Positions 9,962 to 29,158 of a stretch of DNA of 32,162 nucleotides are shown one piece after another. The translations under genes were made by a program, and so were the position numbers. Under the pieces are notes generated by a model. The model was not told the DNA's origin. It ran no database searches and saw only the letters and a list, made by a program, of their open reading frames with translations. Source of the stretch: Verrucomicrobiia bacterium (lineage in GTDB: Bacteria; Verrucomicrobiota; Verrucomicrobiia; Limisphaerales; UBA8199). Location: contig DASYZB010000155.1 of NCBI GenBank assembly GCA_035946615.1, positions 1-32,162 of the forward strand. The letters are read 5' to 3'. Positions within the stretch are counted from its first letter, which is position 1. Each line of letters opens with the position of its first letter.

Positions 9962-12900
9962 ACATGATTACCGGTCTTAAATCCAACGCCCCTGGAGGGG
10001 CTCAAGCCAGACGCGCCTTATTGGAGCAGCGCCTGCGCAAAGCCGCCGGCCCGGCCCGGCCCAGCGCGCTTTCGTTTGCACAGCAGCGTCTGTGGTTTCT
10101 CGATCAACTCGAGCCAAACAGTCCGCTGTACAACGTCGCCAGCGTGGCCCGGGTACAGGGCAAAATCCATGCAAGGGCGTTGGAGCAGGCCATTAATGCG
10201 ATAATCGCCCGTCATGAGGCCCTGCGCACCCGCTTTGTCTGCCCGGATGAATCCCCTGTCCAGGTTGTCGATGCCCGCCTTTGGATACCGCTCAAGACCA
10301 TTGACCTGATGCGCCTTGCCCCTGCCGAGCGCGAATCGGAAGCCGAACGGCTCACACATGAGGAGATTCATTTGCCTTTTGATCTGGGAGCGGGCCCCCT
10401 GCTGCGTCCGACACTGCTCCACCTCACACCCGATGAACACAGGCTGGTTCTGGTCATTCACCACATCGTGGCTGACGAATGGTCGTTGAAGGTTTTGTTT
10501 AGAGAACTGGCCGCCTTCTACGAAGGCTTTATTGAAAACCGGCCCAATCAATTGCCAGAGTTGCCTATCCAATATGCCGATTACGCGGCATGGCAGCGGG
10601 ACTGGCTGCGGGGCGATGTCCTTGAAAAGCAAATCGGCTTTTGGAAACAGCAACTGGGCGGGGAACCCCCAGCCACCGAGTTGCCGACCGATTTTCCACG
10701 CCCTCAAACGCCCGCGTTTCATGGTGGGAACCAGGCGCGAGTTTTCAGCCAGGACCTTGCCGTCCGGCTCAGCCAGTTTGCAGCGCAACACGAGGCAACT
10801 CTTTTTATGGTGCTCCTGGCGGCACTCAAGACCTTGCTCCATCGCTATACGAGGCAGGAGGACATTATCGTCGCTTCCCCGATCGCAGGACGCAACAGGG
10901 TCGAGACTGAAGGGTTGATCGGCTTTTTTGTTAATACCCTTCCATTACGGACGCGCCTGAACGGAGACCCGGCGTTTGAAGAACTTTTGGCGCGGGTTCG
11001 CCAGGTTACTGTGGGTGCTTATGCGCATCAGGATTTGCCCTTCGAACGGTTGGTTGAGGAGCTGCAGCCGGAACGCTCGCTCAGCCATCTGCCGTTCACC
11101 AAAGTAATGTTTGTCATCCAGAACGACGTCCTGCAACAAATCAATCTCCCGGGGGCTCAACTCCAGTTTGTTGAAAATGAGGCCGACACGGCGAAATTCG
11201 ATCTGACATTGCTCGTGCAGGAGAGGGCTCGAGGGCTGGTGGCCCGGGCAGAATACAATTGCGACCTTTTTCGGGGGGAATCAATTGAGCGGCTGTTGCA
11301 GCATTTCGAGACGCTTCTTGAAGGGATCGTGGATGCGCCTGGGCGGCGGTTATCGCAGTTACCAATCCTTTCTGCGGCTGAAACCAAGCAGATGCTCAGT
11401 GACTGGAATAGTAACGCGCGCGAATACCCTCGAGACAAGTGTGTTCACGAGCTTTTTGAGGCCCAGGCGCAGCGCCATCCGGACACCATTGCCATCCTCT
11501 TTGGGCAGGCATCGATAACCTATGGTGAGCTCAACGCTCGGGCGAACCAACTGGCGCATTATCTGAAAGGGCTCAATGTCGGACCCGATGTCCCCGTGGG
11601 AATCTGCCTTCGGCGCTCGGTGGACATGATCATTGGATTGCTGGGTATTCTGAAGGCAGGAGGGGTCTATGTTCCCCTGGACCCGGCTTATCCAAAAGAC
11701 CGGCTGGCCTTCATGTTGGAAGATACTCAAGCGGGGGTGCTCTTGACGCAGCAAACACTCCTGGCGCAGATGCCACAGAATGCGGTCAAATTAATCTCTT
11801 TGGATGGGGATTGGGAATTGATTGCGCGGGAAAGCAAACTCAACCCCGCCAATGTGGCCAACCCGCTCAACCTGGCTTATATCATGTACACCTCCGGCTC
11901 GACTGGCCGGCCCAAGGGCGTAGCCGTACCGCACCGCGCGATCAATCGGCTGGTGCTGAACACCAATTTTATTCAGATCGATGCCACCGACCGCATCGCG
12001 CAGGTGTCCAACATGTCTTTTGATGCGGCAACTTTTGAAATCTGGGGGGCACTGCTCAATGGGGGGCAGCTCATTGGGATCACCCGGGACGTGGCGCTGT
12101 TCCCCGCCGCCTTTTCGAGGGAACTCAGCCAGCAGGGGATCACCGCAATGTTTCTTACTTCAGCCTTGTTCAACCAATTAGCAGCCGAAGTGCCGCGCGC
12201 GTTTGCCGGGCTGCGTACTTTGATAGCTGGAGGCGATGCCCTCGATCCGAAATGGGTGCGGGTGGTGCTGAAGCAGGGGCCGCCCGCGCGCCTGGTGAAT
12301 GGCTACGGTCCAACGGAGAACACCACCTTTACCTGCTGCCATCTCATTGAGGCATTGGACGAGGAGGCGCTGAACGTTCCCATAGGCCGGCCCATTGCCA
12401 ATACCCAGGTGTATATCCTCGATCCGCATTTAAACCCGGCGCCTATCGGGGCTCCGGGCGAACTCTACGCCGGAGGGGATGGTCTGGCGCGGGGCTATTG
12501 GAACCAACCGGAACTGACGGCGGAAAAGTTCATTCCCAACCCATTCGACCCCAGCGGGGCCAGCCGGCTGTACAGGACGGGGGATTTGGCTCGTTACCGG
12601 CCTGATGGGACCATTGAATTTATGGGCCGCATCGATCAACAGGTGAAGATTCGCGGATTTCGCGTCGAGCCAGGCGAGATTGAGACTGTTCTGAATCAGC
12701 ACCCCCGAGTTCGGGAGTGTGTGGTGGTCGTTCGGGGAGAAGGAGCGGCTGCCAAACGGTTGATAGCGTACCTGGTGCCCAGCGGCGAGCCGGTGCCAAA
12801 CGCGAGTCAACTACGGGCCTTTGTTCAGGAAAAGCTCCCCGATTACATGGTGCCTTCGGCATTCATTCCCCTCGAAACGCTTCCCCTGACCCCCAATGGC

Positions 12901-15900
12901 AAAGTAGATAGAAAGGCATTGCCGGCGCTCAACCAGGAGAGGCCGGAGCTGGAACGGCAGTATGTGGCGCCTCGTGATGAGGTCGAGCGGCAGTTGGCAG
13001 CCATTTGGGAAAGAGCCCTTGGAATGCGCCCAATTGGCATTCAGGACAAGTTCTTTGATTTAGGCGGGCATTCATTGTTGGCGGTGCGTGTGATAGCGCA
13101 AATAGAAAAGAATCTGGGTAAGAAGCTGCGTTTAGCCACGATCTTTCAAGCGCCAACCATCGAGCAATTGGCCGCCATTGTTCGGGAGGAGATCAAAGAA
13201 TCGACTATTGCGGCGAGCACCTCGCTGGTTGAAATCCAGCCCCAGGGCTCGCGGCCACCTTTGTTTCTAGTGCATGGGGCCGGAGGCGGGATGTTCTGGG
13301 GGTATGTCAATCTCTCGCACCATCTGGGCGCCGATCAGCCGGTGTACGGCTTCAAATCCAGGGGGCTGGATGGGCGCCAGGAGTTGACCAGCATTCGCGC
13401 CATGGCCTCCACCTATGTCGCTGACTTGCGCTCGCTCCAGCCGCATGGGCCTTATTTTCTCGGCGGCTATTGTTTTGGAGGAAATGTGGCCTTTGAGATG
13501 GCCTGCCAGCTCAGCAAACAGGGCCAGAAGGTCGCCTTCCTGGCGCTGCTCAATTGCTCTCCTCCTAATTCCCGCTACACGCGCACCCAATGGACACCGC
13601 TTTGGGTTGGGCGATTCTTGCGAAACCTGCTTTATTATGCCAATTACGCCCGCCAATGGAGTCCCGCCCAGCGGCGCGAGTTCTTTCGCTGGAAGTGGTC
13701 GCTGGTCCGCAAACGGTTGACACATCATGTTGGTTCCGCCCCTGGCCCGCTTTCCTCTGTGGGCGCAGGAGACCTGGTCGATCTTTCTTCCTATCCGGAA
13801 GAGCAACGCCAAGTCTGGGAAGCCCATATCCAGGCCTTGCTCCAATTCCATCCCCAGCCATTCGATGGACGCGTGCACCTATTCCGCAGCCCTGGCCATC
13901 CCTTTTGGTGCTCATTTGACGCCGACTATGGCTGGAGCGATTTGGCCCGAGACGGGGTGAACATCACCATCATCCCCGGCGCGCACGAAAAAATTCTTGA
14001 AGAACCTTGTGTGCAAATCCTGGCACGTGGATTAGACAAGCTCTTGAATGAAGCCCAAGCTGCGGCTGAATCCTCCCACGTTGAACCAGCCGGGGGCGGC
14101 CTGGAGCCCGTGGCCGGGCAACCCAACAACCATTCCTTACAAAACAGGATGCAGACCACTAATGACCCGAGAGAGCAAGTCCGAGGAGCATTCCAGGAGG
14201 GTTTGCAACCAGGCGCGCAGCGGAATGCCATTGCAGGCGTTGTGGAGAATCATGCAATTGGGCTGGGACTAGACGATGGCTTTGAATCGACTTACCCGGT
14301 TCTTTTTCTTGCTCAAGCCCAGCGTGCGCCCTCGGCCATTGCGGTTCGGTTCGAAGGGGCCGAGTTGACATACGCTGAGCTAAACACTCGTGCCAACCGC
14401 CTGGCTCATTATCTGCAACACCTCGGGGTCGGACCTGAGGTTCTAGTCGGGGTCTGTCTGGAACGCTCGCTCGATTTGATGGTGGTGTTGCTGGCGATCT
14501 TGAAAGCTGGCGGCGCTTATCTGCCTTTGGACCCGGCATACCCCTCCGAACGGCTTGCCTATATGCTGAGCGATTCGCGGGCGCCACTGGTCCTGACAAC
14601 CCGGCGGCTGCTGTCGCGTCTGCCTCAAGGCTCGGTCCAATCCCTTTGCCTGGATGACCAGGAGGCTATCGAGGGCATCAGGGGCAGTTCAGGTTCGCAG
14701 CCAAACAGCTCGCCCTCTGCGCGGGACCTCGCTTACGTTATCTATACTTCCGGTTCGACGGGAGCGCCCAAGGGCGTCCAGATCGCTCATCGCGCCCTTC
14801 TGAACCATAATTTGGCCATCACGCGGGCCTTTTCACTGAAACGAACCGACCGGGTGCTTCAGTTCACGCCTCTTAGCTTCGACATCTCTGTCGAGGAGAT
14901 TTTTCCCACCTGGCTTCGAGGGGCGGCCTTAGTTCTGCGACCTGAGCAGTCGATTTCATCGTCGGAACGGTTCCTGGACTTTATTGAAGATGAGCGGCTG
15001 ACAGTTTTAAACCTTCCAACCTCCTATTGGCACGAGTTGGTCGATTTCCTTCAAACCAGCGAACGCCCGCTTCCCGAGTCGGTCCGGCTGATGATCATCG
15101 GGGGAGAGAAGGCCTCGAACGAGGCCTATAAAAGATGGAAGCAATGCGTCGGCGGCAGGGTGGCTCTCATGAACGGGTACGGAGCGACCGAGGCGACAGT
15201 TACCTCGACTCTCTACCTGGCCCGAGGCGATGAAGAGTCCCTGCCTATTGGCCGACCGATCGCCAATACCCACGCCCTGATCCTGGATGAGCAGCTCAAA
15301 CCGGCGCCCCAGGGGGCCGAAGGCGAATTGTTCCTCGGCGGGGCCGGACTGGCGCGGGGGTATCTCGACCGGCCAGAATTGACGGCTCAAAAGTTTATTG
15401 CCAATCCTTTTCCAAAGGAGATCGATTCCGATCGCTTGTACCGGACCGGCGATCTGGCGCGGTTGCTGCCCGACGGGAACCTCGAATTCCTGGGGCGCCT
15501 GGATGAGCAGGTCAAGATACGCGGCTTTCGCGTCGAGTTGGCCGAGATTGAGTCTGCCCTGCTTGGCCATCCCGATGTCAAAGAAGCGGTGGTGGTCGCC
15601 CGTGAGGACATGCCGGGCAAAAAGCGACTGGTCGCATATCTGGTTGCGCGGTCAACGCCGGGACCAAGAGTAAATGAGCTGGCGCATTTTCTTAAGCAAA
15701 AGCTCCCGGGTTATATGGTGCCCGCGGCGTTCATTTCTCTCAGCGCGCTACCCCTCACCCCGGCCGGCAAAGTGGACCGGCGCGGCCTGCCCTTGCCGAG
15801 CAATGCCCGGCCAGACATCGAGCAGGAATTCATCGCGCCTCGCACCCCGCTTGAGGAGAGACTTGCGGGGATCTGGGGCGATGTTCTGGAAATCAATTCC

Positions 15901-18900
15901 ATCGGCGTTGAGGATAGCTTCTTTGATTTGGGGGGCCATTCGCTTCTCGCGATGCAGATCATATCCAGAATTCGCGACACCTTCCATGAAGACGTTTCAT
16001 TGGCTGACCTCTTTGCGCATCCGACCATCGGTACGCTGGCAACGCATCTGATGCAGAGTGATACGCTCCAAGGGGCCTGGGCCAGCGCGTGTTTGGAACA
16101 GACAACCCGCCGGAGGCTTTCCTCCCGGCAACAGCGCCTTTGGGTGCTTGAGCAGTTCCAGTCCCGGCTCTCGCCTTTCAACCGGCCCCTGCTCTTGCGC
16201 TTGTGCGGACCGCTGGACCGGAGGGCATTGGAACAAAGCATTACTGAACTTGCCAGGAGGCACGAAGGGCTCCGGGCCATTTTCGCTTCAGATAACGGCG
16301 AGCCGGTCCAATATGTCTGCAACCCCGATGAGATCGCGTTGCAGGTAATTGATTTTTCCACCCTTGACGGCAATGAGCGGGAACGGGCATGTCTGGCTCG
16401 GGCCCAACAAGAGACGCGCCGGCCTTACATTATGGCCCAACCCGTCTTGCGTCCGCTGCTCTTTCGTCTGAACCCGACGGAGCATTGGTTGTTGCTGGCT
16501 CTACATGAGATTGTCGCAGATGACCGGGCCGAAAGAGTCGTATTTGAGGAACTGACCGCCCTTTACGAAGGTTTCGCTTCTCAAAATCCCATCTCCCTGC
16601 CGCCCCCGCTGCCCTACGATGAAGCGGCGGCGCAAGCGGATTCCTCGCCGTGTGAAACAGAGGATATGGAATACTGGAGGACCCAGCTTGCAGGGGCGCC
16701 GGAGCACATTGATTTGCCAACCGACCGCCCGCGCCCGTCCGAACATAATGGCGAGGGCGCTCGTTTGAAGATAAGCCTTTCCCCGCGCCTCACGTCAGCC
16801 ATCGAGCAGTTGAGCAGGGAGCGCTGCTGCCCCATCTTTACGACCTTATTGGCGGGATTCGCGACCATGCTTCATCGTTACACCGGCAGTAGCGACATGG
16901 TGATTGGCTCGACAAACCCGGGCCAGCCGGCGCGGGGTTCGGGCATTGCCAATTTTGAAAATCCAATTGCGCTGCGCTGCAATTTATCGGGTGACCCGCG
17001 ATTTCAGGATTTAGTGATGCGTCTGGACGAAGTGGTCTCGGGGGCGCGGGCGCACAGCAGGCTTCCGTTTGCGGCGCTGGTGGACCAATTGGACCCCGGG
17101 CGGGACGCGAAATATCCGCGCGTCTTCCAGGTGGGTTTTGTCCTGGAGGAGCAATCCTTGCCCCAGCGCATTGCCGGATCGCTCCGGTTCACCCCTCTGC
17201 AAATCGATAATCACACGGCCAAACTGGACCTGGCTCTCCGCCTGGCCAAGACGCCTGAAGGCTTCTCAGGCTGGATCGAATACAGCACCGCTCTATTCGA
17301 GCACGCCAGAATGGCGCGCCTGGTGAAACATTTTCTGGCTTTGCTGGAAGGGGCAGTTTTCTCGCCTGAAACGAAACTGTCCGCGCTGCCGCTCCTGCCT
17401 CAAGAAGAAAAGAAACAAGTGCTTATCGACTGGACGCGCACCGAACAGGATTATCCCAGGAACAAAACCATCGCGACACTCTTCTGCGAGCAGGCGGCCC
17501 GCACACCGGACGCGGAGGCGCTGGTCAGCGGGAATCAGCGTTGGAGTTATCGAAGGCTTTACAACGAGGCGGTTCAAATCGCCCTGGATTTGCAGCAACG
17601 GGGCGTCCAGCCTGAGAGTCTAGTTGGCATTTGCCTCCAGCGCACCCCCGAGATGGTGGCCGCTCTGCTGGGCACCCTTCTGGCGGGAGCCGCTTACGTG
17701 CCGCTGGACCCAGGCTATCCGGTGGACCGTCTCTCATTCATTGTGCAACACGCGCGTCTTTCGGTCTTAATCGCTCAACAGCCTCTGCTGGATTTGGTGC
17801 CCAAGGGCGATGCGCAGCTCTTCTGCGTGGAGGCCCGGCAAGACGAGGCTCAAAAGGACACTACCCTGCAGCCCATGCTGAAGGCGCCGCGGAGGGCATC
17901 TCAATCGTCGAGTCTGGCGTATGTCATCTATACCTCCGGCTCAACCGGACGGCCCAAAGGAGTCGCCATCGAACATCGCAGCGTTTCGGCCTTCATCCAT
18001 TGGGCGAAAGGGTTCTTCAGACCCGAGGACCTTTCCGGTGTTTTGGCTTCCACGTCCATTTGCTTTGATTTGTCCGTATTCGAGTTGTTCGTGCCCCTCT
18101 GCTGTGGAGGCAAAGTCCTGCTGGTTGACAATGCCCTGGGCCTGGCTGCTTTGCCCGCGGCCGATGAAGTCCGGCTCATCAACACGGTCCCTTCTGCCAT
18201 GCGCGAATTGTTGCGGCTCAAAGCGGTGCCTCCTTCGGTGCGAGTGATCAATCTGGCGGGCGAACCCCTCGCCACCAGTCTGGTCGATCGCATCTATCGC
18301 GAGACCAGGGTCCAGAAGGTTTATGACCTCTACGGCCCGACAGAAACCACGACCTATTCGACCTGCGCCTTGCGCTTGCCTGGCGCACGCGCCAGCATCG
18401 GCCGCCCGCTGCCTAATGAACAAGTCTATCTGCTGGACGCCCAGTTACAGCCGGCCCCCATTGGGATAGCGGCCGAACTGTACATCGGCGGCGAGGGCCT
18501 GGCCCGGGGTTATCTTTATCGCGACGACCTTACACGCGAGAGGTTCGTTCCACATCCTTTCAGACCAGGCGCCAGGCTTTATCGGACCGGTGACCTGGCG
18601 CGCTGGCGCTCTGATGGGAATTTGGAATATTTGGGGCGTATCGATTACCAGGTCAAGGTCCGAGGCTTTCGGGTTGAACTGGGCGAGATCGAGGCGGTGC
18701 TTCGGGCCCACTCGAGCGTGCGGGAAACGGTGGTGGTTGCGCGAGAGGACCATCCTGGCGACAAACGTCTGGTGGCCTATGTGGTGGCGGCCGATGCCAA
18801 AACGCTCTCAGCCCAGGACTTGCGCCAGGCCGCGATTGCCAAGCTCCCGGAATACATGGTGCCCTCGGCGTTTGTTTTTCTCGATGCCCTCCCCTTAACC

Positions 18901-21900
18901 CCTAATGGCAAAGTGGACCGCAAAGCTCTCCCTCCACCCGGCGAAGAGCAACGGGTAGGAGGGTTCATCGCGCCGCGGACACCCATCGAGGAGCAGCTTG
19001 CAGCGATTTGGCGTGAAGTGCTGCACATCAACCAGGTCGGGCTTCAGGATAACTTCTTCGATCTAGGCGGTCATTCGTTGTTGGCGACCCAAGTCATCTC
19101 GCGAATCAATGAACTCTTTAAGATCAATCTGCCGCTGCTGGCCCTGTTCAGCGCCCCTACGATAGCCCAATTAAGCGCCGGGTTGGAGGCGGGCCAATGG
19201 ACGGACCACGCGGCTCCCATTCTGCCACTTCAGGCTGTGACGCGAAGGGCCTCCCACCCGGTTTCATTTGTCCAGGAACGGCTTTGGTTCCTGAACGAGC
19301 TTCAACCGGGCGGTCATGCTTACAATGTTCCAACGGTTCTGCGCCTGAAAGGTCACTTGGACCGCAAAGCGCTCGCAAAGGCGCTCGACCACATCGGCCA
19401 GCGCCACGAAGCACTGCGCGCCTCTTTTCATTACGCCAACGGCGAACTGACCCAGGTGATAGCCCGGAAGTTTCAGTTCGATTCCCAGGACGTGGATTTG
19501 GGAAACGCCCCTGCGGAGGAGAAGGAAAAGCGGGCGCGGGAGTGGGCGTTGGGTGAGGCACGGCGTGCTTTTGATTTGGCAGCCGGCCCGCTGACACGCG
19601 TCAGCGTCGCTCGTCTGGAGGATTGCGAGCATCTATTGGCCGTGGTGATGCATCACACCGTATCGGATGGCTGGTCTCTGGCAATTTTCTTTAGAGAACT
19701 TCAGGCCCTCTACGATGCCTTTGCGGCTGGCAAACCTGCCCCGCCCCTCCCGAAGTTGTCCATCCAATACATCGACTTTGTCCACTGGCAACGCCAATGG
19801 ATGCGTGGCCCGGTCCTGGAACGGGAATTGAATTATTGGAAACAAAAACTTGATGGGGCGTCTCCTGCTGTAGAGCTCCCGGCGGACTTTGCTGCGTCAG
19901 AACAACCTGTTATGGAGGCGTTGCGCCGAACGGTGACCATCGAACCACGGCTGGTCCAGGCGATGAAGTCTCTGGCACAGCAACAAGGCAACACTCCTTT
20001 CATGGTCCTTTTTGCCGGGCTGGTCATGACGCTTCACAAATGGACCGCTCAACGCGATCTAGTTATCGGCACCGTTGTTGCTGGCCGCACGCGGCGCGAA
20101 CTGGAAGATATCATCGGCTGTTTTATGAATTTCCTGCCGCTCCGCGCGCAAATCCAGGGCGGTGAGACCGCCGAAGAGATTTTAGCGCGGGCCCGGGAGA
20201 CTGCGTTGGAGGCCCAGGCGCACCAGGATTGTCCGTTCGAGAAAATCGTCGAAGCAGTCAATCCGCAGCGCGGGCTCAACCGGAATCCTCTCTATAACGT
20301 CGGGCTTCTCGTTCAGAATTTTCCCAACCAACTTTTCCCCAGTGAAAAGCTCGAAGCCGCCAGCCTGCCGGTGGAGTTGGATGCGGCGTTGCTCGATCTG
20401 CGTTTTGAAGCGGAGCACACCCCGGTTGGGCTATGCCTCCACTGCGAGTACCGGGCGGACCTGTTTGCGCCAGGCACTATCGATCAACTCCTGGCCTCCT
20501 GCTTGGACGCCTTGAGGTTTATTGCCGAACAACCCAAGGCCCGATTGGCGGAGTTCCATGCCAGCCCTGCCTTGGAAACTCAGGCCGAAGCGTGCCGCTC
20601 TGGCAAAGCACGGCGGACCATTGCCATCACGGCAACCTTTACTGCGGAATTGCTTGCTGAGCCGCTCGGTTATTGGCTGAAGGAACTGGACCTGCCGGCG
20701 ATAGTGGAATTTGCGCCATACAATCAAGTCTTCCAGCAACTGCTCGATCCGTGCAGTCTCCTGGCGGCCAATGAAAACGGCCTGAACGTCGTCCTGCTGT
20801 GGTTGGAGGATTGGCAGCGCCGTGCCGGTGTTCCGGGCCAGGAGCGCGCGCAAGGTCCTGATGAGAACCTGGCGCGCAGTGTCCAGGAATTCAGCGCGGC
20901 TCTCAAAGCGGCTGCCTCCCGGACCTCAACCCCGTTCCTGGTTTGCCTTTGCCCGCCCTCACCGGCTACGCTTGCAGACCCCGTTCAATCCAAGGTTCTG
21001 GCCAGGGAAGAGGCGGCTCTAGTCGCCGGGTTGGAAGGATCAGCGGGGGTGTACGTGTTAAGCAGCGCGGATATTGGCCGCTGGTACCCCGTAAAGGAGT
21101 ACTATGATCCGAGCGGGGACGAATTGGGCCACGTGCCCTTTACGCCGCTATTCTTTACCGGCCTGGCAACGGCTATTGGGCGGAAGTATCATTCGTTGCA
21201 GCGCGCACCCGGCAAAGTCATCGTGCTGGACTGCGACCAGACTCTCTGGTCGGGTGTGTGCGGCGAAGACGGCCCTCATGGAATTCAACTCGACCCGCCG
21301 TGGAAGGCGTTGCAAGAGTTTATGCGCGCGCAGCAGGAGGCGGGGATGTTGCTCTGTCTGTGCAGCAAAAACAACGAGGCGGATGTGCTGGAGGTATTCA
21401 ACCAGCGGCTGGACATGCCCTTGCGGCGCGAACACTTCATTTCCTGGCGTCTGAACTGGCAGCCCAAATCCGAGAACCTGCGGTCTCTTGCTCAGGAACT
21501 GCAACTGGGCCTGGACAGTTTCATTTTCCTGGACGACAACCCGCTCGAATGCGCCGAGGTGGAGGCCAATTGCCCTGAGGTGCTCGTGCTTCAGTTGCCC
21601 ACCGAACCCCGGCAGATTCCCGATTTCCTGAATCATTGCTGGATATTTGATCATCTCAAACTCACAGCCGAAGATAAGCGGCGGGCGCAGCTTTACCGGC
21701 AAAACCAGCAACGCGAACAGCTTCGAGTCCAGTCGCCCAGTCTTTTGGACTTTCTGTCGCGCCTGGAACTCAAGCTCGATATTCATCCCATGCGCGTTGA
21801 GGAGTTGTCTCGTGTGGCGCAGTTGACTCAGCGCACCAACCAGTTCAATTGCAACCCGGCGAGGCTGACCGAAAGCGATCTCCAGCAACGGCTCTCCTCT

Positions 21901-23574
21901 TCTGAGGTCTTCGCTGTCCAGGTCAGTGATCGTTTTGGCGATTACGGTTTGGCCGGGGTGCTCCTCTGCCAATGGCGCACCGACCTGTTGCAGGTGGACT
22001 GGTTTCTTTTGAGCTGCCGCGTCCTGGGGCGCGGGGTCGAGCACCGCATGCTCTCCTGGCTGGGCGAGCGGGCGCGCGAGCGGAGCGCCAAATGGGTCGA
22101 TTTGCATTTCGTCAAAACGGCCCGAAACAAACCCGCTTTTGATTTTCTTGAATCTGTAGGAGCCGATTTCAAACAAGCGCTCAATGGAGGCTATGTGTTT
22201 CGGTTCCCGGCGGGGTTTGCGGCCGAAGTTGCCTTTCAGCCTTCTGTGGCAAACGTGACCCTCTCGGCGCAGTCTGCTGCTCCGATTCCCGCGTCTGGCG
22301 GCGGCTCAGCCCAAAACCAAGGACGCAAGTTCACCCAATGCCGGTCCATCGCGCTGGAGGCCAATGAGGCGGCCAAAATCCAACAGCGCATCGAGTCCCG
22401 GCGCGTTCTGCGCACGGTAAAACAGATGGACTATGCCGCGCCGCAAACTGAGATCGAACGCCGCTTGTGCGGGCTTTGGCAGGACTTGCTGCATGTCACC
22501 CGCGTTGGACTGAAGGACAATTTCTTTGAATTGGGCGGCCATTCGCTTCTTGCGGTGCGGCTCTTTGCTGAAATCGAGAAACTCACCGGGCGCAAATTCC
22601 CGCTCGTGACGTTATTCCAGGCGCCGACCCTGGGCCAACTGGCCAGGGTGCTGTCCCAAGCCCAGGGGCCCGCTTGCGGTTCGTTGCTGGTGCCCATCCA
22701 GCCCAAGGGGGCCAAACCGCCGTTATTCCTGGTACACGGGGCCGGCGGGGATGTGCTCTGGGGTTATGCGAACCTGGCGGCCTACACGCCCGCCGACCAG
22801 CCCATCTACGGCATTAAATCCCGAGGCCAGTCCGGGCTGGATGAACCGGCGACGATCGGCGAAATGGCCCAGCATTACCTCCAAGCTGTGCGCGAATTCC
22901 AGCCGCAGGGCCCCTACTATTTAGGCGGCTATTGCTTTGGCGGGAATGTCGCCTACGAAATGGCGCGCCAGCTTCGGGCTGCGGGCCAATCCGTCGCGCT
23001 GGTGCTTCTCATTGACAGCTCTCCGGCCAATGCCGGCTATGAAACGGTTGCCTGGTGGCGTCCAGGTTTTTGGTCGCGATTTGCGCGAAATTTCATTTAT
23101 TGGCTGCACGACTTCGCCCAGTTGCAGCCGGCTGAGCGGAGCGGCTTTATCCTGAGGAAATTCCGGGCATTGGGCCGCAAACTTAAGCGGCGCATCCAAG
23201 GGGAGAAAGGACCGGGTCCAGTTGATCTCGAAGAGGTGATCGATCCCGAGCGGATTCCCGATAACGAACTGAGGCTGTGGAAGGTCCATCTCCAGGCCCT
23301 GATTACCCATGTGGACCAGTCCTATCCGGGCGGTGTCAGCCTGTTCCGCACGCGCGGCCAGCCCCTGTTCTGCTCGCTCGAAGAGGATTTCTGCTGGGGC
23401 AAGCTCGTCCAGGGCGAAGTTGGGGTCACATTCATTCCCGGCTCGCACGAGAATATTTTTATGGAGCCCAACGTACAGGCTTTGGCTCGATTGTTCAAAA
23501 CGGCGCTGGCGGAGGCCCAGGGCGCGCCTGGCGAAGAAGGCAAGCCGGAGTTAAAGACCGCTGAGATTTCGTAA
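9958..23574 (+). CDS. giant NRPS with internal TE, degenerate C, FkbH domain and terminal TE (NRPS2, 4538 aa)
   Basis: Domain order, numbered from the TTG at 9958: C (35-455, HHIVADEW at 168), A (496-985), PCP (Ser1039), TE1 (1089-1365), linker, A (1445-1945) with no C before it, PCP (Ser1995), degenerate C (2050-2485, second His replaced by Glu2184), A (2500-2990), PCP (Ser3040), C (3095-3530, HHTVSDGW at 3232), FkbH-like HAD plus GNAT region (3545-4085), PCP (Ser4196), TE2 (4242-4520). Specificity codes as I read them: DAFFIGGTFK (Val/Ile-like), DIENIGGVTK (unassigned) and DLFNNALTYK (a small residue, Ala/Gly). There are no epimerase, methyltransferase or cyclisation domains. TTG 9958 overlaps the NRPS1 stop; ATG 9964 is the alternative, two residues shorter. 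The frame is open across the full 13.6 kb, so this is not an annotation merge. Known families indicate a peptide ending in a glycerate unit; the product itself is inferred. Confidence 0.93.
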   Translation: MNMITGLKSNAPGGAQARRALLEQRLRKAAGPARPSALSFAQQRLWFLDQLEPNSPLYNVASVARVQGKIHARALEQAINAIIARHEALRTRFVCPDESPVQVVDARLWIPLKTIDLMRLAPAERESEAERLTHEEIHLPFDLGAGPLLRPTLLHLTPDEHRLVLVIHHIVADEWSLKVLFRELAAFYEGFIENRPNQLPELPIQYADYAAWQRDWLRGDVLEKQIGFWKQQLGGEPPATELPTDFPRPQTPAFHGGNQARVFSQDLAVRLSQFAAQHEATLFMVLLAALKTLLHRYTRQEDIIVASPIAGRNRVETEGLIGFFVNTLPLRTRLNGDPAFEELLARVRQVTVGAYAHQDLPFERLVEELQPERSLSHLPFTKVMFVIQNDVLQQINLPGAQLQFVENEADTAKFDLTLLVQERARGLVARAEYNCDLFRGESIERLLQHFETLLEGIVDAPGRRLSQLPILSAAETKQMLSDWNSNAREYPRDKCVHELFEAQAQRHPDTIAILFGQASITYGELNARANQLAHYLKGLNVGPDVPVGICLRRSVDMIIGLLGILKAGGVYVPLDPAYPKDRLAFMLEDTQAGVLLTQQTLLAQMPQNAVKLISLDGDWELIARESKLNPANVANPLNLAYIMYTSGSTGRPKGVAVPHRAINRLVLNTNFIQIDATDRIAQVSNMSFDAATFEIWGALLNGGQLIGITRDVALFPAAFSRELSQQGITAMFLTSALFNQLAAEVPRAFAGLRTLIAGGDALDPKWVRVVLKQGPPARLVNGYGPTENTTFTCCHLIEALDEEALNVPIGRPIANTQVYILDPHLNPAPIGAPGELYAGGDGLARGYWNQPELTAEKFIPNPFDPSGASRLYRTGDLARYRPDGTIEFMGRIDQQVKIRGFRVEPGEIETVLNQHPRVRECVVVVRGEGAAAKRLIAYLVPSGEPVPNASQLRAFVQEKLPDYMVPSAFIPLETLPLTPNGKVDRKALPALNQERPELERQYVAPRDEVERQLAAIWERALGMRPIGIQDKFFDLGGHSLLAVRVIAQIEKNLGKKLRLATIFQAPTIEQLAAIVREEIKESTIAASTSLVEIQPQGSRPPLFLVHGAGGGMFWGYVNLSHHLGADQPVYGFKSRGLDGRQELTSIRAMASTYVADLRSLQPHGPYFLGGYCFGGNVAFEMACQLSKQGQKVAFLALLNCSPPNSRYTRTQWTPLWVGRFLRNLLYYANYARQWSPAQRREFFRWKWSLVRKRLTHHVGSAPGPLSSVGAGDLVDLSSYPEEQRQVWEAHIQALLQFHPQPFDGRVHLFRSPGHPFWCSFDADYGWSDLARDGVNITIIPGAHEKILEEPCVQILARGLDKLLNEAQAAAESSHVEPAGGGLEPVAGQPNNHSLQNRMQTTNDPREQVRGAFQEGLQPGAQRNAIAGVVENHAIGLGLDDGFESTYPVLFLAQAQRAPSAIAVRFEGAELTYAELNTRANRLAHYLQHLGVGPEVLVGVCLERSLDLMVVLLAILKAGGAYLPLDPAYPSERLAYMLSDSRAPLVLTTRRLLSRLPQGSVQSLCLDDQEAIEGIRGSSGSQPNSSPSARDLAYVIYTSGSTGAPKGVQIAHRALLNHNLAITRAFSLKRTDRVLQFTPLSFDISVEEIFPTWLRGAALVLRPEQSISSSERFLDFIEDERLTVLNLPTSYWHELVDFLQTSERPLPESVRLMIIGGEKASNEAYKRWKQCVGGRVALMNGYGATEATVTSTLYLARGDEESLPIGRPIANTHALILDEQLKPAPQGAEGELFLGGAGLARGYLDRPELTAQKFIANPFPKEIDSDRLYRTGDLARLLPDGNLEFLGRLDEQVKIRGFRVELAEIESALLGHPDVKEAVVVAREDMPGKKRLVAYLVARSTPGPRVNELAHFLKQKLPGYMVPAAFISLSALPLTPAGKVDRRGLPLPSNARPDIEQEFIAPRTPLEERLAGIWGDVLEINSIGVEDSFFDLGGHSLLAMQIISRIRDTFHEDVSLADLFAHPTIGTLATHLMQSDTLQGAWASACLEQTTRRRLSSRQQRLWVLEQFQSRLSPFNRPLLLRLCGPLDRRALEQSITELARRHEGLRAIFASDNGEPVQYVCNPDEIALQVIDFSTLDGNERERACLARAQQETRRPYIMAQPVLRPLLFRLNPTEHWLLLALHEIVADDRAERVVFEELTALYEGFASQNPISLPPPLPYDEAAAQADSSPCETEDMEYWRTQLAGAPEHIDLPTDRPRPSEHNGEGARLKISLSPRLTSAIEQLSRERCCPIFTTLLAGFATMLHRYTGSSDMVIGSTNPGQPARGSGIANFENPIALRCNLSGDPRFQDLVMRLDEVVSGARAHSRLPFAALVDQLDPGRDAKYPRVFQVGFVLEEQSLPQRIAGSLRFTPLQIDNHTAKLDLALRLAKTPEGFSGWIEYSTALFEHARMARLVKHFLALLEGAVFSPETKLSALPLLPQEEKKQVLIDWTRTEQDYPRNKTIATLFCEQAARTPDAEALVSGNQRWSYRRLYNEAVQIALDLQQRGVQPESLVGICLQRTPEMVAALLGTLLAGAAYVPLDPGYPVDRLSFIVQHARLSVLIAQQPLLDLVPKGDAQLFCVEARQDEAQKDTTLQPMLKAPRRASQSSSLAYVIYTSGSTGRPKGVAIEHRSVSAFIHWAKGFFRPEDLSGVLASTSICFDLSVFELFVPLCCGGKVLLVDNALGLAALPAADEVRLINTVPSAMRELLRLKAVPPSVRVINLAGEPLATSLVDRIYRETRVQKVYDLYGPTETTTYSTCALRLPGARASIGRPLPNEQVYLLDAQLQPAPIGIAAELYIGGEGLARGYLYRDDLTRERFVPHPFRPGARLYRTGDLARWRSDGNLEYLGRIDYQVKVRGFRVELGEIEAVLRAHSSVRETVVVAREDHPGDKRLVAYVVAADAKTLSAQDLRQAAIAKLPEYMVPSAFVFLDALPLTPNGKVDRKALPPPGEEQRVGGFIAPRTPIEEQLAAIWREVLHINQVGLQDNFFDLGGHSLLATQVISRINELFKINLPLLALFSAPTIAQLSAGLEAGQWTDHAAPILPLQAVTRRASHPVSFVQERLWFLNELQPGGHAYNVPTVLRLKGHLDRKALAKALDHIGQRHEALRASFHYANGELTQVIARKFQFDSQDVDLGNAPAEEKEKRAREWALGEARRAFDLAAGPLTRVSVARLEDCEHLLAVVMHHTVSDGWSLAIFFRELQALYDAFAAGKPAPPLPKLSIQYIDFVHWQRQWMRGPVLERELNYWKQKLDGASPAVELPADFAASEQPVMEALRRTVTIEPRLVQAMKSLAQQQGNTPFMVLFAGLVMTLHKWTAQRDLVIGTVVAGRTRRELEDIIGCFMNFLPLRAQIQGGETAEEILARARETALEAQAHQDCPFEKIVEAVNPQRGLNRNPLYNVGLLVQNFPNQLFPSEKLEAASLPVELDAALLDLRFEAEHTPVGLCLHCEYRADLFAPGTIDQLLASCLDALRFIAEQPKARLAEFHASPALETQAEACRSGKARRTIAITATFTAELLAEPLGYWLKELDLPAIVEFAPYNQVFQQLLDPCSLLAANENGLNVVLLWLEDWQRRAGVPGQERAQGPDENLARSVQEFSAALKAAASRTSTPFLVCLCPPSPATLADPVQSKVLAREEAALVAGLEGSAGVYVLSSADIGRWYPVKEYYDPSGDELGHVPFTPLFFTGLATAIGRKYHSLQRAPGKVIVLDCDQTLWSGVCGEDGPHGIQLDPPWKALQEFMRAQQEAGMLLCLCSKNNEADVLEVFNQRLDMPLRREHFISWRLNWQPKSENLRSLAQELQLGLDSFIFLDDNPLECAEVEANCPEVLVLQLPTEPRQIPDFLNHCWIFDHLKLTAEDKRRAQLYRQNQQREQLRVQSPSLLDFLSRLELKLDIHPMRVEELSRVAQLTQRTNQFNCNPARLTESDLQQRLSSSEVFAVQVSDRFGDYGLAGVLLCQWRTDLLQVDWFLLSCRVLGRGVEHRMLSWLGERARERSAKWVDLHFVKTARNKPAFDFLESVGADFKQALNGGYVFRFPAGFAAEVAFQPSVANVTLSAQSAAPIPASGGGSAQNQGRKFTQCRSIALEANEAAKIQQRIESRRVLRTVKQMDYAAPQTEIERRLCGLWQDLLHVTRVGLKDNFFELGGHSLLAVRLFAEIEKLTGRKFPLVTLFQAPTLGQLARVLSQAQGPACGSLLVPIQPKGAKPPLFLVHGAGGDVLWGYANLAAYTPADQPIYGIKSRGQSGLDEPATIGEMAQHYLQAVREFQPQGPYYLGGYCFGGNVAYEMARQLRAAGQSVALVLLIDSSPANAGYETVAWWRPGFWSRFARNFIYWLHDFAQLQPAERSGFILRKFRALGRKLKRRIQGEKGPGPVDLEEVIDPERIPDNELRLWKVHLQALITHVDQSYPGGVSLFRTRGQPLFCSLEEDFCWGKLVQGEVGVTFIPGSHENIFMEPNVQALARLFKTALAEAQGAPGEEGKPELKTAEIS
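13222..14060 (+). other. internal thioesterase domain TE1 of NRPS2
   Basis: An alpha/beta-hydrolase type-I TE with FLVHGAGG near its N-terminus. The nucleophile elbow is GGYCFGG (Cys1172 instead of Ser). The catalytic-Asp position, 27 residues later as in the surfactin TE, is Asn1199 (LLNCSPP). The His is His1343 in PGAHEKI. A long lid insertion rich in Arg/Trp lies after about residue 1205. TE domains normally end a synthetase; this one is followed by a roughly 75-residue low-complexity linker and an A domain. It may release a dipeptidyl chain, act as a transfer or editing domain, or be impaired because the Asp is lost. Confidence 0.85.
16110..17430 (+). other. degenerate condensation domain of NRPS2 (HExxxDD)
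   Basis: The fold-level landmarks of a C domain are present (SSRQQRLWVLEQF at the start, PLRPLLFRLN, CCPIFTTLLAGF, FENPIALRCNLSGDP, RLPFAALVDQL). The active-site motif normally written HHxxxDGW reads H2183-E2184-I-V-A-D-D-R. The second His, which is the catalytic base in C domains, is Glu, and the G-W pair is D-R. The other three C domains of the operon keep both His residues. Either the domain is catalytically dead or it has a non-canonical role. Confidence 0.8.
20590..22215 (+). other. FkbH-like glyceryl-loading domain of NRPS2
   Basis: The N-terminal extension typical of FkbH-family proteins (APYNQVFQQLLDP, NVVLLWLEDW) is followed by a HAD phosphatase fold. Its motif I is LDCDQTLWSG (D3758 and D3760), with SKNNEADV, WQPKSENL and FIFLDDNPLE as the later motifs. 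A GNAT-like C-terminal part has LTQRTNQFN, FGDYGLAG, CRVLGRGVE and ARNKPAFDFL. Family members dephosphorylate 1,3-bisphosphoglycerate and load a glyceryl group on a carrier protein. Here the domain occupies the place of an A domain between C and PCP, directly before the terminal TE. Confidence 0.9.
22681..23520 (+). other. terminal thioesterase domain TE2 of NRPS2
   Basis: A close paralogue of TE1 with the same GGYCFGG elbow (Cys4326), Asp4353 (LLIDSSP) 27 residues later, and His4497 (PGSHENI) 171 residues after the Cys. The Cys-to-His spacing is identical to TE1. It has a complete Cys-His-Asp triad and presumably releases the final product by hydrolysis or cyclisation. Confidence 0.88.
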
Positions 23575-23579
23575 CACCT

Positions 23580-25250
23580 ATGATGCTTCTAAAATTTATA
23601 TTCCGCACCTGCCGAGGGATGATGATTTTCACCACCGTGACGGCGATGCTCAGCGGCGCCTGCAATGCCGGGCTGATGGCATTGGTCACCGCCGCTTTGA
23701 CGCGCACCTCCGCCGGGCTCGCTGCATTGCTTTGGGCCTTCATCGCGCTGGGCCTGGGCAAGGTCCTTACGAATTTTGTTTCCCAGGTTGTGCTGGCAAG
23801 ATTCTCGCAGGGGGCTATTGCGCAGTTGCGGCGCGATTTGATCAGCAAAATCCTTGCGGTGCCATTGCGGAACCTGGAAGAAATTGGCTCGCCCCGCATT
23901 CTGGTGGCTCTGACGGACGATGTCTTTAACATCACCCAGGCGCTGCTGGCGATACCGGTCATCTCGGTCAATATCGCCATCCTTCTTGGGGGCGCCGCCT
24001 ATTTGGGGTGGCTCTCCTGGAGGATGCTTGCCGCGGTGGCCGCGTTAATTCTCTTTGGGGGCATCGGCTACCGCCTGGTCATTGCCCGCGCCTTTCACTC
24101 GCTGAACCGCGCGCGGGAGTCGGAAGACAAACTGTATGGCTATTTTCGCGCGCTCACCGAGGGCATCAAGGAGCTGAAACTTCATCGCAGCCGCCGCAGC
24201 GCGTTTTTTAATGATAATATCCAATCCACCACGGAGGCCTATCAGCGCGAGAACGTGCGGGCCGAACTCTGCTTCATCACGGCCCAGAACTGGAATCACT
24301 TGCTTTATTTCGTGCTCATTGGGGTCATCCTGTTTTTGGTCCCGCATCTGGCGGCTTTCAGCCAGAACACGCTCACGGGGTACGTGGTCACTACGCTGTA
24401 TCTGATGGGTCCGCTGGCGGGGGTGATGAGCAGCTTTTCGCTGTTTGGCCGCGCCAGCGTCGCCCTGCAGAAGGTCCAAACTTTGGGAATCTCCTTGTCC
24501 GAGCACTCGACCGAAACCTGTTCATTCGATCAATCCGAAGCGCCGGTCGCTTTCAACCGCCTGGATTTGCGCGCTATCCTTCATTCGTACCATTGCGAGC
24601 AGGACGACAGCCATTTCATTCTCGGGCCCATCAATTTGAGCTTTCGCCCCGGGGAATTGGTTTTCCTGGTGGGCGGCAACGGGAGCGGCAAATCGACTTT
24701 GGCCAAGCTCGTTGCAGGACTTTACGTGCCCGAGGCGGGCGAGATTCGGCTCAATGGGCAGTTGATTAGCGATGCAAACCGGGACGAATATCGCCAGCTT
24801 TTCTCCGCCGTCTTCGGCGATTTTTACCTGTTCGAAAACCTGCTCGGCTTGAAGAACCCGAACATTGACACCCAGGCCGAGGAGTATCTCCAACAGCTCC
24901 ATTTGAACCACAAGGTCAAGGTGCGGGACGGCGTTTTATCGACCACGGCTGTTTCCCAGGGGCAGCGCAAACGGCTCGCGCTTTTGACCGCGTATCTCGA
25001 GGACCGGCCCTTTTACCTCTTCGATGAGTGGGCGGCGGACCAGGACCCCCATTTCAAAGAAGTCTTTTACAAGCGCCTGCTTCCGGAACTTAAAGCGCGG
25101 GGCAAAACCGTCCTGGTCATCACCCATGATGATCGCTACTTCTACCTGGCAGACCGCCTGATTAAACTGGACTATGGCAAACTGGTCTTGGGTTCCACGC
25201 CGGAACCCAACGGCTGCTCGCGACCGGTCCTTGTTAAAGATGAGTTTTGA
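23580..25250 (+). CDS. cyclic-peptide-type ABC exporter (TMD-NBD fusion)
   Basis: This is a 556-residue half-transporter with about six membrane helices (residues about 8-300) fused to an ATP-binding domain. Walker A is GGNGSGKST (365-373), the signature is VSQGQRKR (from 458), Walker B is FYLFDEWAADQDP (about 478-490) and the switch His is in VITHDDRYF. The relaxed signature (V-S-Q-G-Q instead of LSGGQ) and the F-D-E-W-A-A-D-Q-D-P Walker B are characteristic of the cyclic-peptide/siderophore exporter family (PvdE/SyrD-like). It starts 5 bases after the NRPS2 stop, so it is co-transcribed. It most likely moves the operon's product across the inner membrane. The ATG at 23580 is followed at once by another ATG; no strong ribosome binding site is seen. 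No outer-membrane partner is in the window. Confidence 0.9.
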   Translation: MMLLKFIFRTCRGMMIFTTVTAMLSGACNAGLMALVTAALTRTSAGLAALLWAFIALGLGKVLTNFVSQVVLARFSQGAIAQLRRDLISKILAVPLRNLEEIGSPRILVALTDDVFNITQALLAIPVISVNIAILLGGAAYLGWLSWRMLAAVAALILFGGIGYRLVIARAFHSLNRARESEDKLYGYFRALTEGIKELKLHRSRRSAFFNDNIQSTTEAYQRENVRAELCFITAQNWNHLLYFVLIGVILFLVPHLAAFSQNTLTGYVVTTLYLMGPLAGVMSSFSLFGRASVALQKVQTLGISLSEHSTETCSFDQSEAPVAFNRLDLRAILHSYHCEQDDSHFILGPINLSFRPGELVFLVGGNGSGKSTLAKLVAGLYVPEAGEIRLNGQLISDANRDEYRQLFSAVFGDFYLFENLLGLKNPNIDTQAEEYLQQLHLNHKVKVRDGVLSTTAVSQGQRKRLALLTAYLEDRPFYLFDEWAADQDPHFKEVFYKRLLPELKARGKTVLVITHDDRYFYLADRLIKLDYGKLVLGSTPEPNGCSRPVLVKDEF

Positions 25251-27910: not shown

Positions 27911-29158
27911 TTATCGCTCGGAACCGAGGAGACGCTGCTTTACATTGTCGGGCAAAGCTGAGTTCTGCACCCAGGCGCGCGCAGCCGCCTGGTCCGCGTT
28001 CATCCAAGCGCCGGCTGCCGTCTGCATTTCCAAAAGCCTCTCCCTCTCGTCGCCTATTGACTCCGCCCAGGCTGCTGCCGCAGCCGGGTCCGTGCGGTCC
28101 ACGACCTCGACAAAGCTCCCCACAGCCGCGTCGCGGGTCGAGCCCGGGCTTTGCCCTTGCAGCCAATTGGCCGCGCCAGCCGGATCATTTATCGCCCAAG
28201 AAATCACCAGAGTACGCGCCGACTCGTCTCGCGCCTTGCCTTCGGGAAACTGATCCACCCATTTCGCCGCCGAGACCGGGTCCGAGGCGGCCCACGAGGT
28301 AAGGACGCTGTCCACGACGGCGTTTTGGGTGTCGCCGGCAGAAATGCTTGCTGCGAAAGCAGCGGCATCCGCTGGGGACTTCCGCCCCCACACAGCCCCC
28401 AGCGCAGACAAGGCATCCTTTTGCGCTTGCCCGGACAAATTATCGACTGCCCATCTGCCGGCTGCCGCTGGATCCGTTGAAGCCCATTCGCTCGTTACCT
28501 CACCCGCAAGATTGTTGAGCAAGCTCCCGGAAGGCTGGCTCAGGAGGGAATCCGCCGCAGCTTTGGGATCGCCAGCAGCCCATGATGTCAGGGCTTGGCG
28601 CGTAGCCTGGCTGCGGCCGGTTCCTGCCGGCAATCCTTGCGCCCAAGCCAACGCGCTCTGCGGGTCGCTAGTGGCCCACGCGCTTGCAATAACGCCAAAG
28701 AGCCGGTCCCGCTCACGGCCTGGGTCAAGCGATGTCGCAAGTTCGGCAGCGGCCGGGGGATTGATTTGGCTTAGCCGTCCAGTCAATTGCGCCAGCGCCA
28801 GAGCTCTGTCAACCCTGTTAGTGAGTTGTTGGGCCAATATAATTATCCGCCCGATTTCCTGCGGCCTAAGCGAGCCTATTAACGCCTGCAACTGTTGCTG
28901 GTTCTTATCTCCTGAGTGGGCCGCGGCGAGTGCGCGGAAGAAAGCCGCATCCTGATCTTCTTGGCGGGCGGACAGGGCGACCAATCGCCCGCGCGATGCG
29001 GTTGGCGCTCCCTGCCCTGCCGCATGGGCAAGGGAATTTGTCGAGACGACAGTGGAACCTACGCTTTCGTGCGCTTCACGTAATGGCACACGTCCGAGAA
29101 AAAACCCAAGGGCAAGTCCAAAGGCAACCAGTGAAAACTTGGACGTTATTACTTTCAT
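27911..29158 (-). CDS. secreted repeat protein with W-x-x-x-DP units
   Basis: A 415-residue protein with an N-terminal hydrophobic segment (residues 7-22, signal peptide or anchor) and then about eight degenerate helical repeats of roughly 32-33 residues between about residues 130 and 405. The recurring core is W-A-x-x-DP-x-x-A-x-x-W followed by a Gly/Pro turn (SAWATSDPQSALAWA, TSWAASDPVSAAKWV, ISWAINDPAGAANWL). The pattern suggests an alpha-solenoid of paired helices, analogous to Sel1/TPR scaffolds. Such proteins are frequent and uncharacterised in Verrucomicrobiota. It probably sits in the periplasm or outer layer as a protein-binding scaffold, which is inference. It is followed after 16 bases by the TMTC-like gene. 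Confidence 0.75.
   Translation of the reverse strand: MKVITSKFSLVAFGLALGFFLGRVPLREAHESVGSTVVSTNSLAHAAGQGAPTASRGRLVALSARQEDQDAAFFRALAAAHSGDKNQQQLQALIGSLRPQEIGRIIILAQQLTNRVDRALALAQLTGRLSQINPPAAAELATSLDPGRERDRLFGVIASAWATSDPQSALAWAQGLPAGTGRSQATRQALTSWAAGDPKAAADSLLSQPSGSLLNNLAGEVTSEWASTDPAAAGRWAVDNLSGQAQKDALSALGAVWGRKSPADAAAFAASISAGDTQNAVVDSVLTSWAASDPVSAAKWVDQFPEGKARDESARTLVISWAINDPAGAANWLQGQSPGSTRDAAVGSFVEVVDRTDPAAAAAWAESIGDERERLLEMQTAAGAWMNADQAAARAWVQNSALPDNVKQRLLGSER

Follow-up and report, generated by a model that had tools for sequence, protein, structure and literature searches.

A probable terminal glycerate module, C-FkbH-PCP-TE, at the end of a verrucomicrobial nonribosomal peptide synthetase

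Organization of the locus and its terminal module

The DNA described here, referred to as the window, is the whole stretch of 32,162 nucleotides (G000:C155:1-32162; contig DASYZB010000155.1 of assembly GCA_035946615.1) from a Verrucomicrobiia bacterium whose genome comprises 5.6 Mb in 161 contigs. It carries two nonribosomal peptide synthetase (NRPS) genes in tandem on the same strand, followed by an ABC exporter gene (Table 1). The second NRPS gene, whose earliest possible start is a TTG that overlaps the gene 1 stop codon (with an ATG further on at 9964), encodes 4538 aa and closes with a module (19240-23574) that reads condensation (C), FkbH, peptidyl carrier protein (PCP) and thioesterase (TE) in a single open frame. 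The original prediction, made from the nucleotide letters, had placed an FkbH-type HAD/GNAT domain with all its motifs where an adenylation (A) domain would normally be, between an intact C domain and the last PCP and TE, and both the identity of this domain and its placement hold.

In the complete open reading frame (ORF) of gene 2, Pfam recognizes three AMP-binding stretches, which phmmer resolves as the A domains of modules 2, 3 and 4, while neither method found an A domain between the last C and the last PCP. The final PCP (PCP5) is followed by TE2 and then by the stop codon, so that the module would hand glycerate to no further module, unlike the internal C-FkbH-PCP of the vioprolide type. 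A frameshift or assembly artefact behind the terminal module was ruled out, because the frame stays open over 4538 codons, the window contains zero Ns, and the same domain order recurs in other genomes. Third-position GC is alike across the seven domains measured (0.65-0.72). The C-FkbH-PCP-TE ending of gene 2 is confirmed as genuine, far beyond chance.

Table 1. Features of the NRPS cluster, in window positions; motifs and A-domain codes are given with the domain concerned.
Feature	Position	Strand	Basis
NRPS gene 1, C-A-PCP, A code DAFWLGGTF (Val-like)	6614-9961	+	Pfam, domain order, code reading
NRPS gene 2, C-A-PCP-TE1-A-PCP-C-A-PCP-C-FkbH-PCP-TE2, 4538 aa	9958-23574	+	ORF and domain searches
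C domain, module 2 (HHIVADE)	10066-11397	+	
A domain, module 2, code DAFFIGGTF (Val/Ile-like)	11455-12903	+	phmmer, code reading
TE1, internal thioesterase, Cys nucleophile GYCFGG, His present, Asn at the triad Asp position	13225-14052	+	alignment and fold model
A domain, module 3, abutting TE1 without an intervening C; code DIENIGGVT	14293-15852	+	phmmer, code reading
C domain between modules 3 and 4, degenerate active-site motif HEIVADD	16117-17397	+	
A domain, module 4, code DLFNNALTY	17470-18987	+	phmmer, code reading
C domain of the terminal module, HHTVSDGW intact	19249-20565	+	motif and C-domain tree
FkbH domain in the A-domain place: SGNH-like, HAD (DCDQT ... CSKNNE ... DDNP) and GNAT parts	20602-22185	+	TIGR01686, alignment, fold
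Terminal PCP5 (LGGHSL)	22435-22659	+	
TE2, terminal thioesterase, Cys nucleophile GYCFGG, Asp at position I, His	22708-23529	+	alignment
Cyclic-peptide-type ABC exporter	23580-25250	+	TIGR01194, 510.7 bits, cut-off 286.2

The FkbH domain

The domain matches TIGR01686 (FkbH) with 319.7 bits (1.9e-95), exceeding the curated cut-off of 146.65 more than twofold. In domain numbering, the residues D210-x-D212-x-T214, S255-K256-N257 and D311-D312 are invariant both in 15 aligned NRPS FkbHs and in a second set of 18, and C254 is nearly invariant in the 15-row set and invariant in the 18-row set. We take the aligned HAD residues to be catalytic, and none of the four aspartates among them is mutated on realignment. 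An AlphaFold model of the domain (mean pLDDT, the predicted local distance difference test, 87.4) has a predicted SGNH-like part followed by HAD and GNAT parts, and in a fold search it matched BF1531 over residues 1-354 (Z 32.1), an SGNH/GDSL-type esterase over residues 2-201 (Z 14.3), MDP-1 over the HAD part at residues 201-352 (Z 16.5), and GNAT enzymes over residues 390-528 (Z up to 14.6). This search listed no FkbH of known function, which is not evidence of absence. Judged by the model, the HAD/GNAT description is right, with the addition of a predicted SGNH-like part in front.

The FkbH domain shares 52% identity with a copy from Planktothrix rubescens PCC7821 (L125) and 53% with one from Nostoc sp. 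KVJ20 (L163), and the motifs are identical in both. Glyceric acid loading is described for cyanopeptolin operons of Planktothrix (PMC2533009), and glycerate loading is proposed for the suomilide-type cluster of Nostoc KVJ20, L125 and L163 being copies from these organisms and not necessarily the domains concerned. Taken on homology, the loading of a glyceryl group by FkbH, as originally predicted, appears well supported.

FkbH domains also occur outside such modules. Genes that read FkbH-PCP-TE without any C or A domain account for 21 of the 104 rows of the FkbH tree and come from cyanobacteria, planctomycetes and acidobacteria (e.g. L176:9980-13003, L123:9950-13006 and L127:9947-12853). At four such loci, 4 of the 10 neighbouring ORFs scanned are glycosyltransferases, found in L176 and L123, and the L127 copy adjoins a two-component system. 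Because glycosyltransferases adjoin the L176 and L123 copies, some of these genes may place glyceryl on a glycan. Second FkbH-PCP copies are present on other contigs of G140 and G143 (L070:9184-11709 and L071:9273-11567), besides the terminal-module clusters of these genomes.

The C domain preceding FkbH

A tree of 124 C domains groups the C domain of the terminal module with 15 others in one clade (support 1.0). Of these 16 members, 15 stand before an FkbH domain and 1 before an A domain, and they are drawn from Verrucomicrobiota, Acidobacteriota, Cyanobacteria and Bacteroidota. The tree was built from domains longer than 380 aa, leaving out a cut one of L128 and, in G004, the one ahead of FkbH, which contains an insertion, as well as L099, L100, L104 and L110, which are copies of G009, G142, G144 and G030. 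The HHxxxD motif is kept in all 23 C domains of the tree set that precede FkbH, and also in the G004 copy dropped for its length. The grouping fits a C type that would accept glyceryl; it does not prove ester formation.

Distribution of the C-FkbH-PCP-TE ending

At least 23 of 320 genomes of the order have an FkbH match at E <= 1e-75; the genome searches scored 2-4 candidates per genome, and such counts are lower bounds throughout. Architecture was read in all FkbH-positive genomes except G012. The ending is complete in one frame in 9 of the 23, which belong to six families (G000, G004, G030, G054, G079, G132, G140, G141 and G144), and across the eight relatives with a complete ending the FkbH domain is 53-60% identical to that of the window. 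Among the remainder, G143 has TE2 in another frame and was not counted as complete, G142 is cut by a contig end, and ten genomes have no C-FkbH-PCP-TE ending in the stretch seen, some of them being cut by contig ends.

At the level of the phylum, at least two genomes besides G000 in a draw of 387 match FkbH at E <= 1e-130, both with FkbH near the protein start. Among the best 80 of 517 named relatives, a scan that may miss terminal modules elsewhere, an uncultured Aquimarina has C-A-PCP followed by C-FkbH-PCP-TE with a Ser thioesterase, which gives at least one terminal case outside the order. The terminal placement noted in the original prediction is real and recurs, in these nine genomes and in Aquimarina. 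In the FkbH tree, which left out L099, L100, L104, L110 and the second piece of G054, a clade with support 0.993 unites 14 FkbH domains of the order, including every one of the 12 located after a C domain. The Aquimarina FkbH falls outside this clade, yet its preceding C domain shares the C clade of the terminal C domain in the window; because of this, either the C-FkbH-PCP-TE ending would have arisen twice, or domains would have been exchanged. Since several related bacteria keep the ending, the terminal glycerate module is probably real and in use.

The two thioesterases and the TE1-A junction

Several features of gene 2 go beyond what was originally noted, namely a Cys nucleophile in both thioesterases, an internal thioesterase (TE1), an Asn in its triad, an A domain starting directly after it, and a degenerate C domain between modules 3 and 4. 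TE1 and TE2 read GYC[FL]GG in the aligned members. At the position of the triad Asp, checked against EntF and AB3403, all 14 aligned TE1-type domains have Asn (11 of them internal, counting G132), and the 12 TE2-type domains have Asp in 11 cases and Glu in 1, those of G009 and G025 not directly following an FkbH module. A model of TE1 (pLDDT 82.2) matches the folds of the AB3403 and EntF thioesterases (Z 23.4 and 23.3), several further matches scoring level with them; neither ObiF nor SulM was listed in this search, which is not evidence of absence. The Cys nucleophile was rejected as a mark of this cluster, as it is found in all aligned thioesterases from genomes of the order, inside and outside these clusters.

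The passage from TE1 into an A domain in one frame, detected by a full-length match to a model spanning TE1 and the start of A, occurs in at least 11 places in at least 10 of the 320 genomes and in four families; the model was built from 7 of the 10 matching genomes. Nine of the ten also carry C-FkbH, the exception being G005, which is without an FkbH match at 1e-75. The junction and the C-FkbH ending are found together in four families of the order, and in a fifth (G132) if the TE|A split there is an assembly flaw. This split was not used as a natural one, because the end of TE1 in G132 holds an ambiguous base. G009 meets the junction at a contig end. In the two-TE comparison, the two thioesterases and the A-PCP start between them all lie in one continuous ORF.

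G005 (L030:7461-19427 and L031:2-430) reads ketosynthase-acyltransferase-acyl carrier protein (KS-AT-ACP)-C-A-PCP-TE-A-PCP-TE-A-PCP, the first three domains having been read by eye from the sequence. This hybrid polyketide synthase (PKS)-NRPS has internal thioesterases in tandem and no terminal release domain was seen in it; an exporter, a methyltransferase and a phosphopantetheinyl transferase (PPTase) lie downstream.

Other clusters of the order have TE1-type domains at the C-terminal end of a protein. Asn was consequently rejected as a mark of internal thioesterases, being common to these C-terminal domains with the sole exception of G154, which has Asp. In the 8 cases looked at, no A-PCP was seen beyond the C-terminal TE1-type domain, and in 6 of these 8 an ORF of exporter size follows (554-626 aa, a candidate by length). 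TE1 of G030:C436 leads into the beginning of a C domain. Internal TE1 domains do not form a single clade in a FastTree phylogeny, from which L099, L100, L110 and identical sequences were left out.

Adenylation codes and neighbouring genes

The A-domain codes listed in Table 1 were read from an alignment, using residue positions that we take from PheA together with motif anchors. Of the four, the code of module 4 is presumably Ala-like. DAFWLGGTFK, which corresponds to module 1, is listed as Val (PMC9113097), and the code of module 3 resembles DVENAGVVTK of OciB-A4, which stands at the position of 3-amino-6-hydroxy-2-piperidone (Ahp) in cyanopeptolins (PMC2533009), the assignment being one of resemblance only. 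No oxidase able to make Ahp was seen among the neighbouring ORFs scanned. The residue activated after TE1 varies among the relatives, with a Pro-type code in G140, G141, G143 and G144 (DVQFIAHV is listed as Pro; PMC2866473) and an Ala-type code in G009 and G132.

An ABC exporter matching TIGR01194 lies directly downstream in 7 of 7 clusters tested (the window, G054, G004, G140, G079, G141 and G005), with 475-518 bits against the cut-off given in Table 1. The genome has two matches to the PPTase superfamily, one of which may be the fatty-acid AcpS. Three further long ORFs in the window have no Pfam match and are candidate genes only, at 2601-5723 (minus strand), 1283-2134 (plus strand) and 27911-29158 (minus strand).

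Interpretation of the terminal module and of TE1

We consider it probable that gene 2 ends in a genuine terminal glycerate module, in which FkbH charges PCP5 with glyceryl, the C domain makes the ester and an O-acylglycerate is released by TE2. What is observed is the order of the domains, their intact motifs, the predicted fold, the conservation in relatives and the linked exporter. By homology with described systems, FkbH would take glycerate from 1,3-bisphosphoglycerate, strip the phosphate and load glyceryl on PCP5, and the terminal C domain would form an ester between the chain on PCP4, which ends in the Ala-like residue, and a hydroxyl of the glyceryl group. TE2, through its Cys, would then accept the O-acylglycerate chain and release a depsipeptide whose carboxyl end is glycerate, either free or cyclised; as for the mode of release, the measurements favour none of hydrolysis, transfer and the lactonisation put forward in the original prediction. 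The depsipeptide would probably be exported by the neighbouring transporter, because a cyclic-peptide-type ABC exporter adjoins the cluster. The interpretation offered in the original prediction is partly supported overall.

Several points weigh against a productive terminal glycerate module at the end of the line. Some FkbH domains may load other C3 acids. An FkbH-specific C type is not general, because 8 of the 23 C domains preceding FkbH fall outside the C clade and one clade member precedes an A domain. The terminal place is not fixed within the FkbH clade either, because G009, of the same FkbH lineage, reads C-FkbH-PCP-C-A-PCP-TE. TE1 is left unexplained by a terminal glycerate, and the C domain between modules 3 and 4 is without the second catalytic His in three of four aligned members (HEIVADD in the window, HSIACDT in G054 and HELACDG in G079), this residue being kept only in G004 (HHLASDA). 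With this degeneracy just ahead of module 4 in three of four, the chain arriving at PCP4 may not be the collinear one, and the combination of an internal TE1 with this degenerate C domain makes a simple collinear line doubtful. The same degeneracy, one module upstream, would be in keeping with an FkbH module that has decayed or become non-productive, a relic beside the thioesterase; such a relic is very unlikely, as the FkbH motifs, the PCP serine, the C motif and the Cys and His of the thioesterase are intact, and as the module is kept in six families with the FkbH identities given above for the eight complete relatives. Another conceivable role for TE2 is closure of a strained beta-lactone through the 3-hydroxyl of glycerate, in the manner of the ObiF Cys thioesterase with a beta-hydroxy amino acid. 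A Cys nucleophile is present in TE2, and an ester on the 2-hydroxyl would leave the 3-hydroxyl free, beta to the thioester. TE2 keeps its Asp at position I, however, whereas ObiF and SulM are described with position II (PMC11298585); because the Asp has not moved, a thioesterase of the ObiF/SulM type is not favoured for TE2, and beta-lactone closure is most improbable.

Two additions to the terminal glycerate module could account for TE1, each of them tentative. Gene 2 may hold two lines in one protein, with TE1 transferring a Val-Val type unit made by modules 1-2 as an ester to a hydroxyl of the product of line 2, most simply the hydroxyl that glycerate would keep free; we regard this as somewhat unlikely. 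It would fit the presence, in the window and its relatives, of two thioesterases and of an A-PCP start without a C domain after TE1, and also the TE1-type domains that are C-terminal in other clusters, with no A-PCP beyond them in the 8 looked at. Two-TE systems joined through transesterification by a thioesterase are described, but as separate proteins (PMC7794379), and under this proposal the middle A-PCP-TE of G005 would be a line of one residue. The other addition, which is likewise somewhat unlikely, would make TE1 a condensing enzyme, passing the PCP2 chain via its Cys to the amine of aminoacyl-PCP3 within one collinear line. That TE1 runs into A in one frame at the 11 or more junctions in four families, and that G005 has two such steps in tandem, speaks for it, as does the pairing, in all 14 aligned TE1 domains, of a Cys nucleophile with Asn where the Asp would be, a triad that may suit hydrolysis less. 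The gramicidin S thioesterase, which ligates a TE-bound peptide to a PCP-bound one, is a precedent. Condensation by TE1 is harder to reconcile with the same TE1 type at protein C-termini elsewhere, with Asn in all but one, with the C-domain start that follows TE1 in G030:C436, and with the scattered placement of internal TE1 domains in the FastTree phylogeny; G005 moreover closes on A-PCP with no release step, three of the four aligned C domains that follow module 3 are degenerate, and remnants of a C-A linker before the A domain that follows TE1 are also normal in starter A domains. G005 favours ligation, and the C-terminal relatives of TE1 favour two lines. The conjunction of condensation by TE1 with the glycerate ending is unlikely; gene 2 would then be one collinear line, with an internal Cys-His-Asn thioesterase in the role of a C domain between the PCP2 chain and aminoacyl-PCP3, and its product would end in O-peptidyl glycerate.

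If the terminal glycerate module operates as proposed, the nonribosomal peptide would acquire, right where it is released, glycerate as an ester-linked hydroxy acid with a spare hydroxyl, and the C-FkbH-PCP-TE ending would serve as a compact means of finishing a peptide with glycerate. The TE-A junction, found in several families, would make the handing on of chains by thioesterases within a line concretely testable.

Comparison with known systems

An FkbH domain is described as replacing A in the vioprolide, corramycin and cystomanamide lines, and as doing so in the first module of the suomilide and varlaxin lines, and a Flavobacterium cluster has an FkbH-like domain in the fifth of seven modules (PMC11298585). 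In the open-licence literature searched on FkbH and glycerate lines no terminal FkbH module was found, the positions described being first, second, fifth of seven and next to last. The cystomanamide synthetase, given as (C-FkbH-PCP)4-(C-A-PCP-E-TE)5 (PMC9581180), where E is epimerization, likewise has FkbH for A in a late elongation module. There, FkbH is described as next to last, whereas the window has it in the final module, immediately ahead of PCP-TE. The relative G009, with C-FkbH-PCP-C-A-PCP-TE, ends like the cystomanamide synthetase except for the E domain.

The vioprolide and corramycin lines, described as fatty acyl-AMP ligase (FAAL)-ACP-C-FkbH-T, where T corresponds to PCP (PMC8949500, PMC10099666), share C-FkbH-PCP with the window. 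The original prediction had named the vioprolide starter module as a precedent; the precedent is right for an ester-forming C-FkbH, glycerate being joined in vioprolide through an ester made by the C domain, but the position needs correction, since FkbH is described there in the second module and not in the starter. In vioprolide and corramycin this second module is described as receiving a fatty acyl chain, whereas the module in the window is terminal. In cyanopeptolin, suomilide and varlaxin (PMC2533009, PMC13122637, PMC10143770), an FkbH or glyceric acid loading domain is described as feeding a PCP, as in the window; these glycerate modules initiate, whereas that of the window terminates.

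For the internal thioesterase, parallels are described in other settings. In FR900359 and salinamide, two NRPS lines each have a thioesterase, and FrsA-TE and Sln9-TE, respectively, transfer one product to a hydroxyl of the other (PMC7794379). These lines are described as separate proteins, whereas the window has one continuous protein in which any such transfer is hypothetical. Internal thioesterases are also noted for burkholderic acid (PMC6113372), and in AlpA2 of the alpiniamide pathway an internal Cys thioesterase is described right before an NRPS module, inside the line as in the window; it has Cys/Asp/His in a PKS context (PMC6113372), whereas TE1 has Cys/Asn/His. FkbH in place of an A domain is already known from these systems, and what is new in the window, as far as searched, is a terminal FkbH beside a thioesterase.

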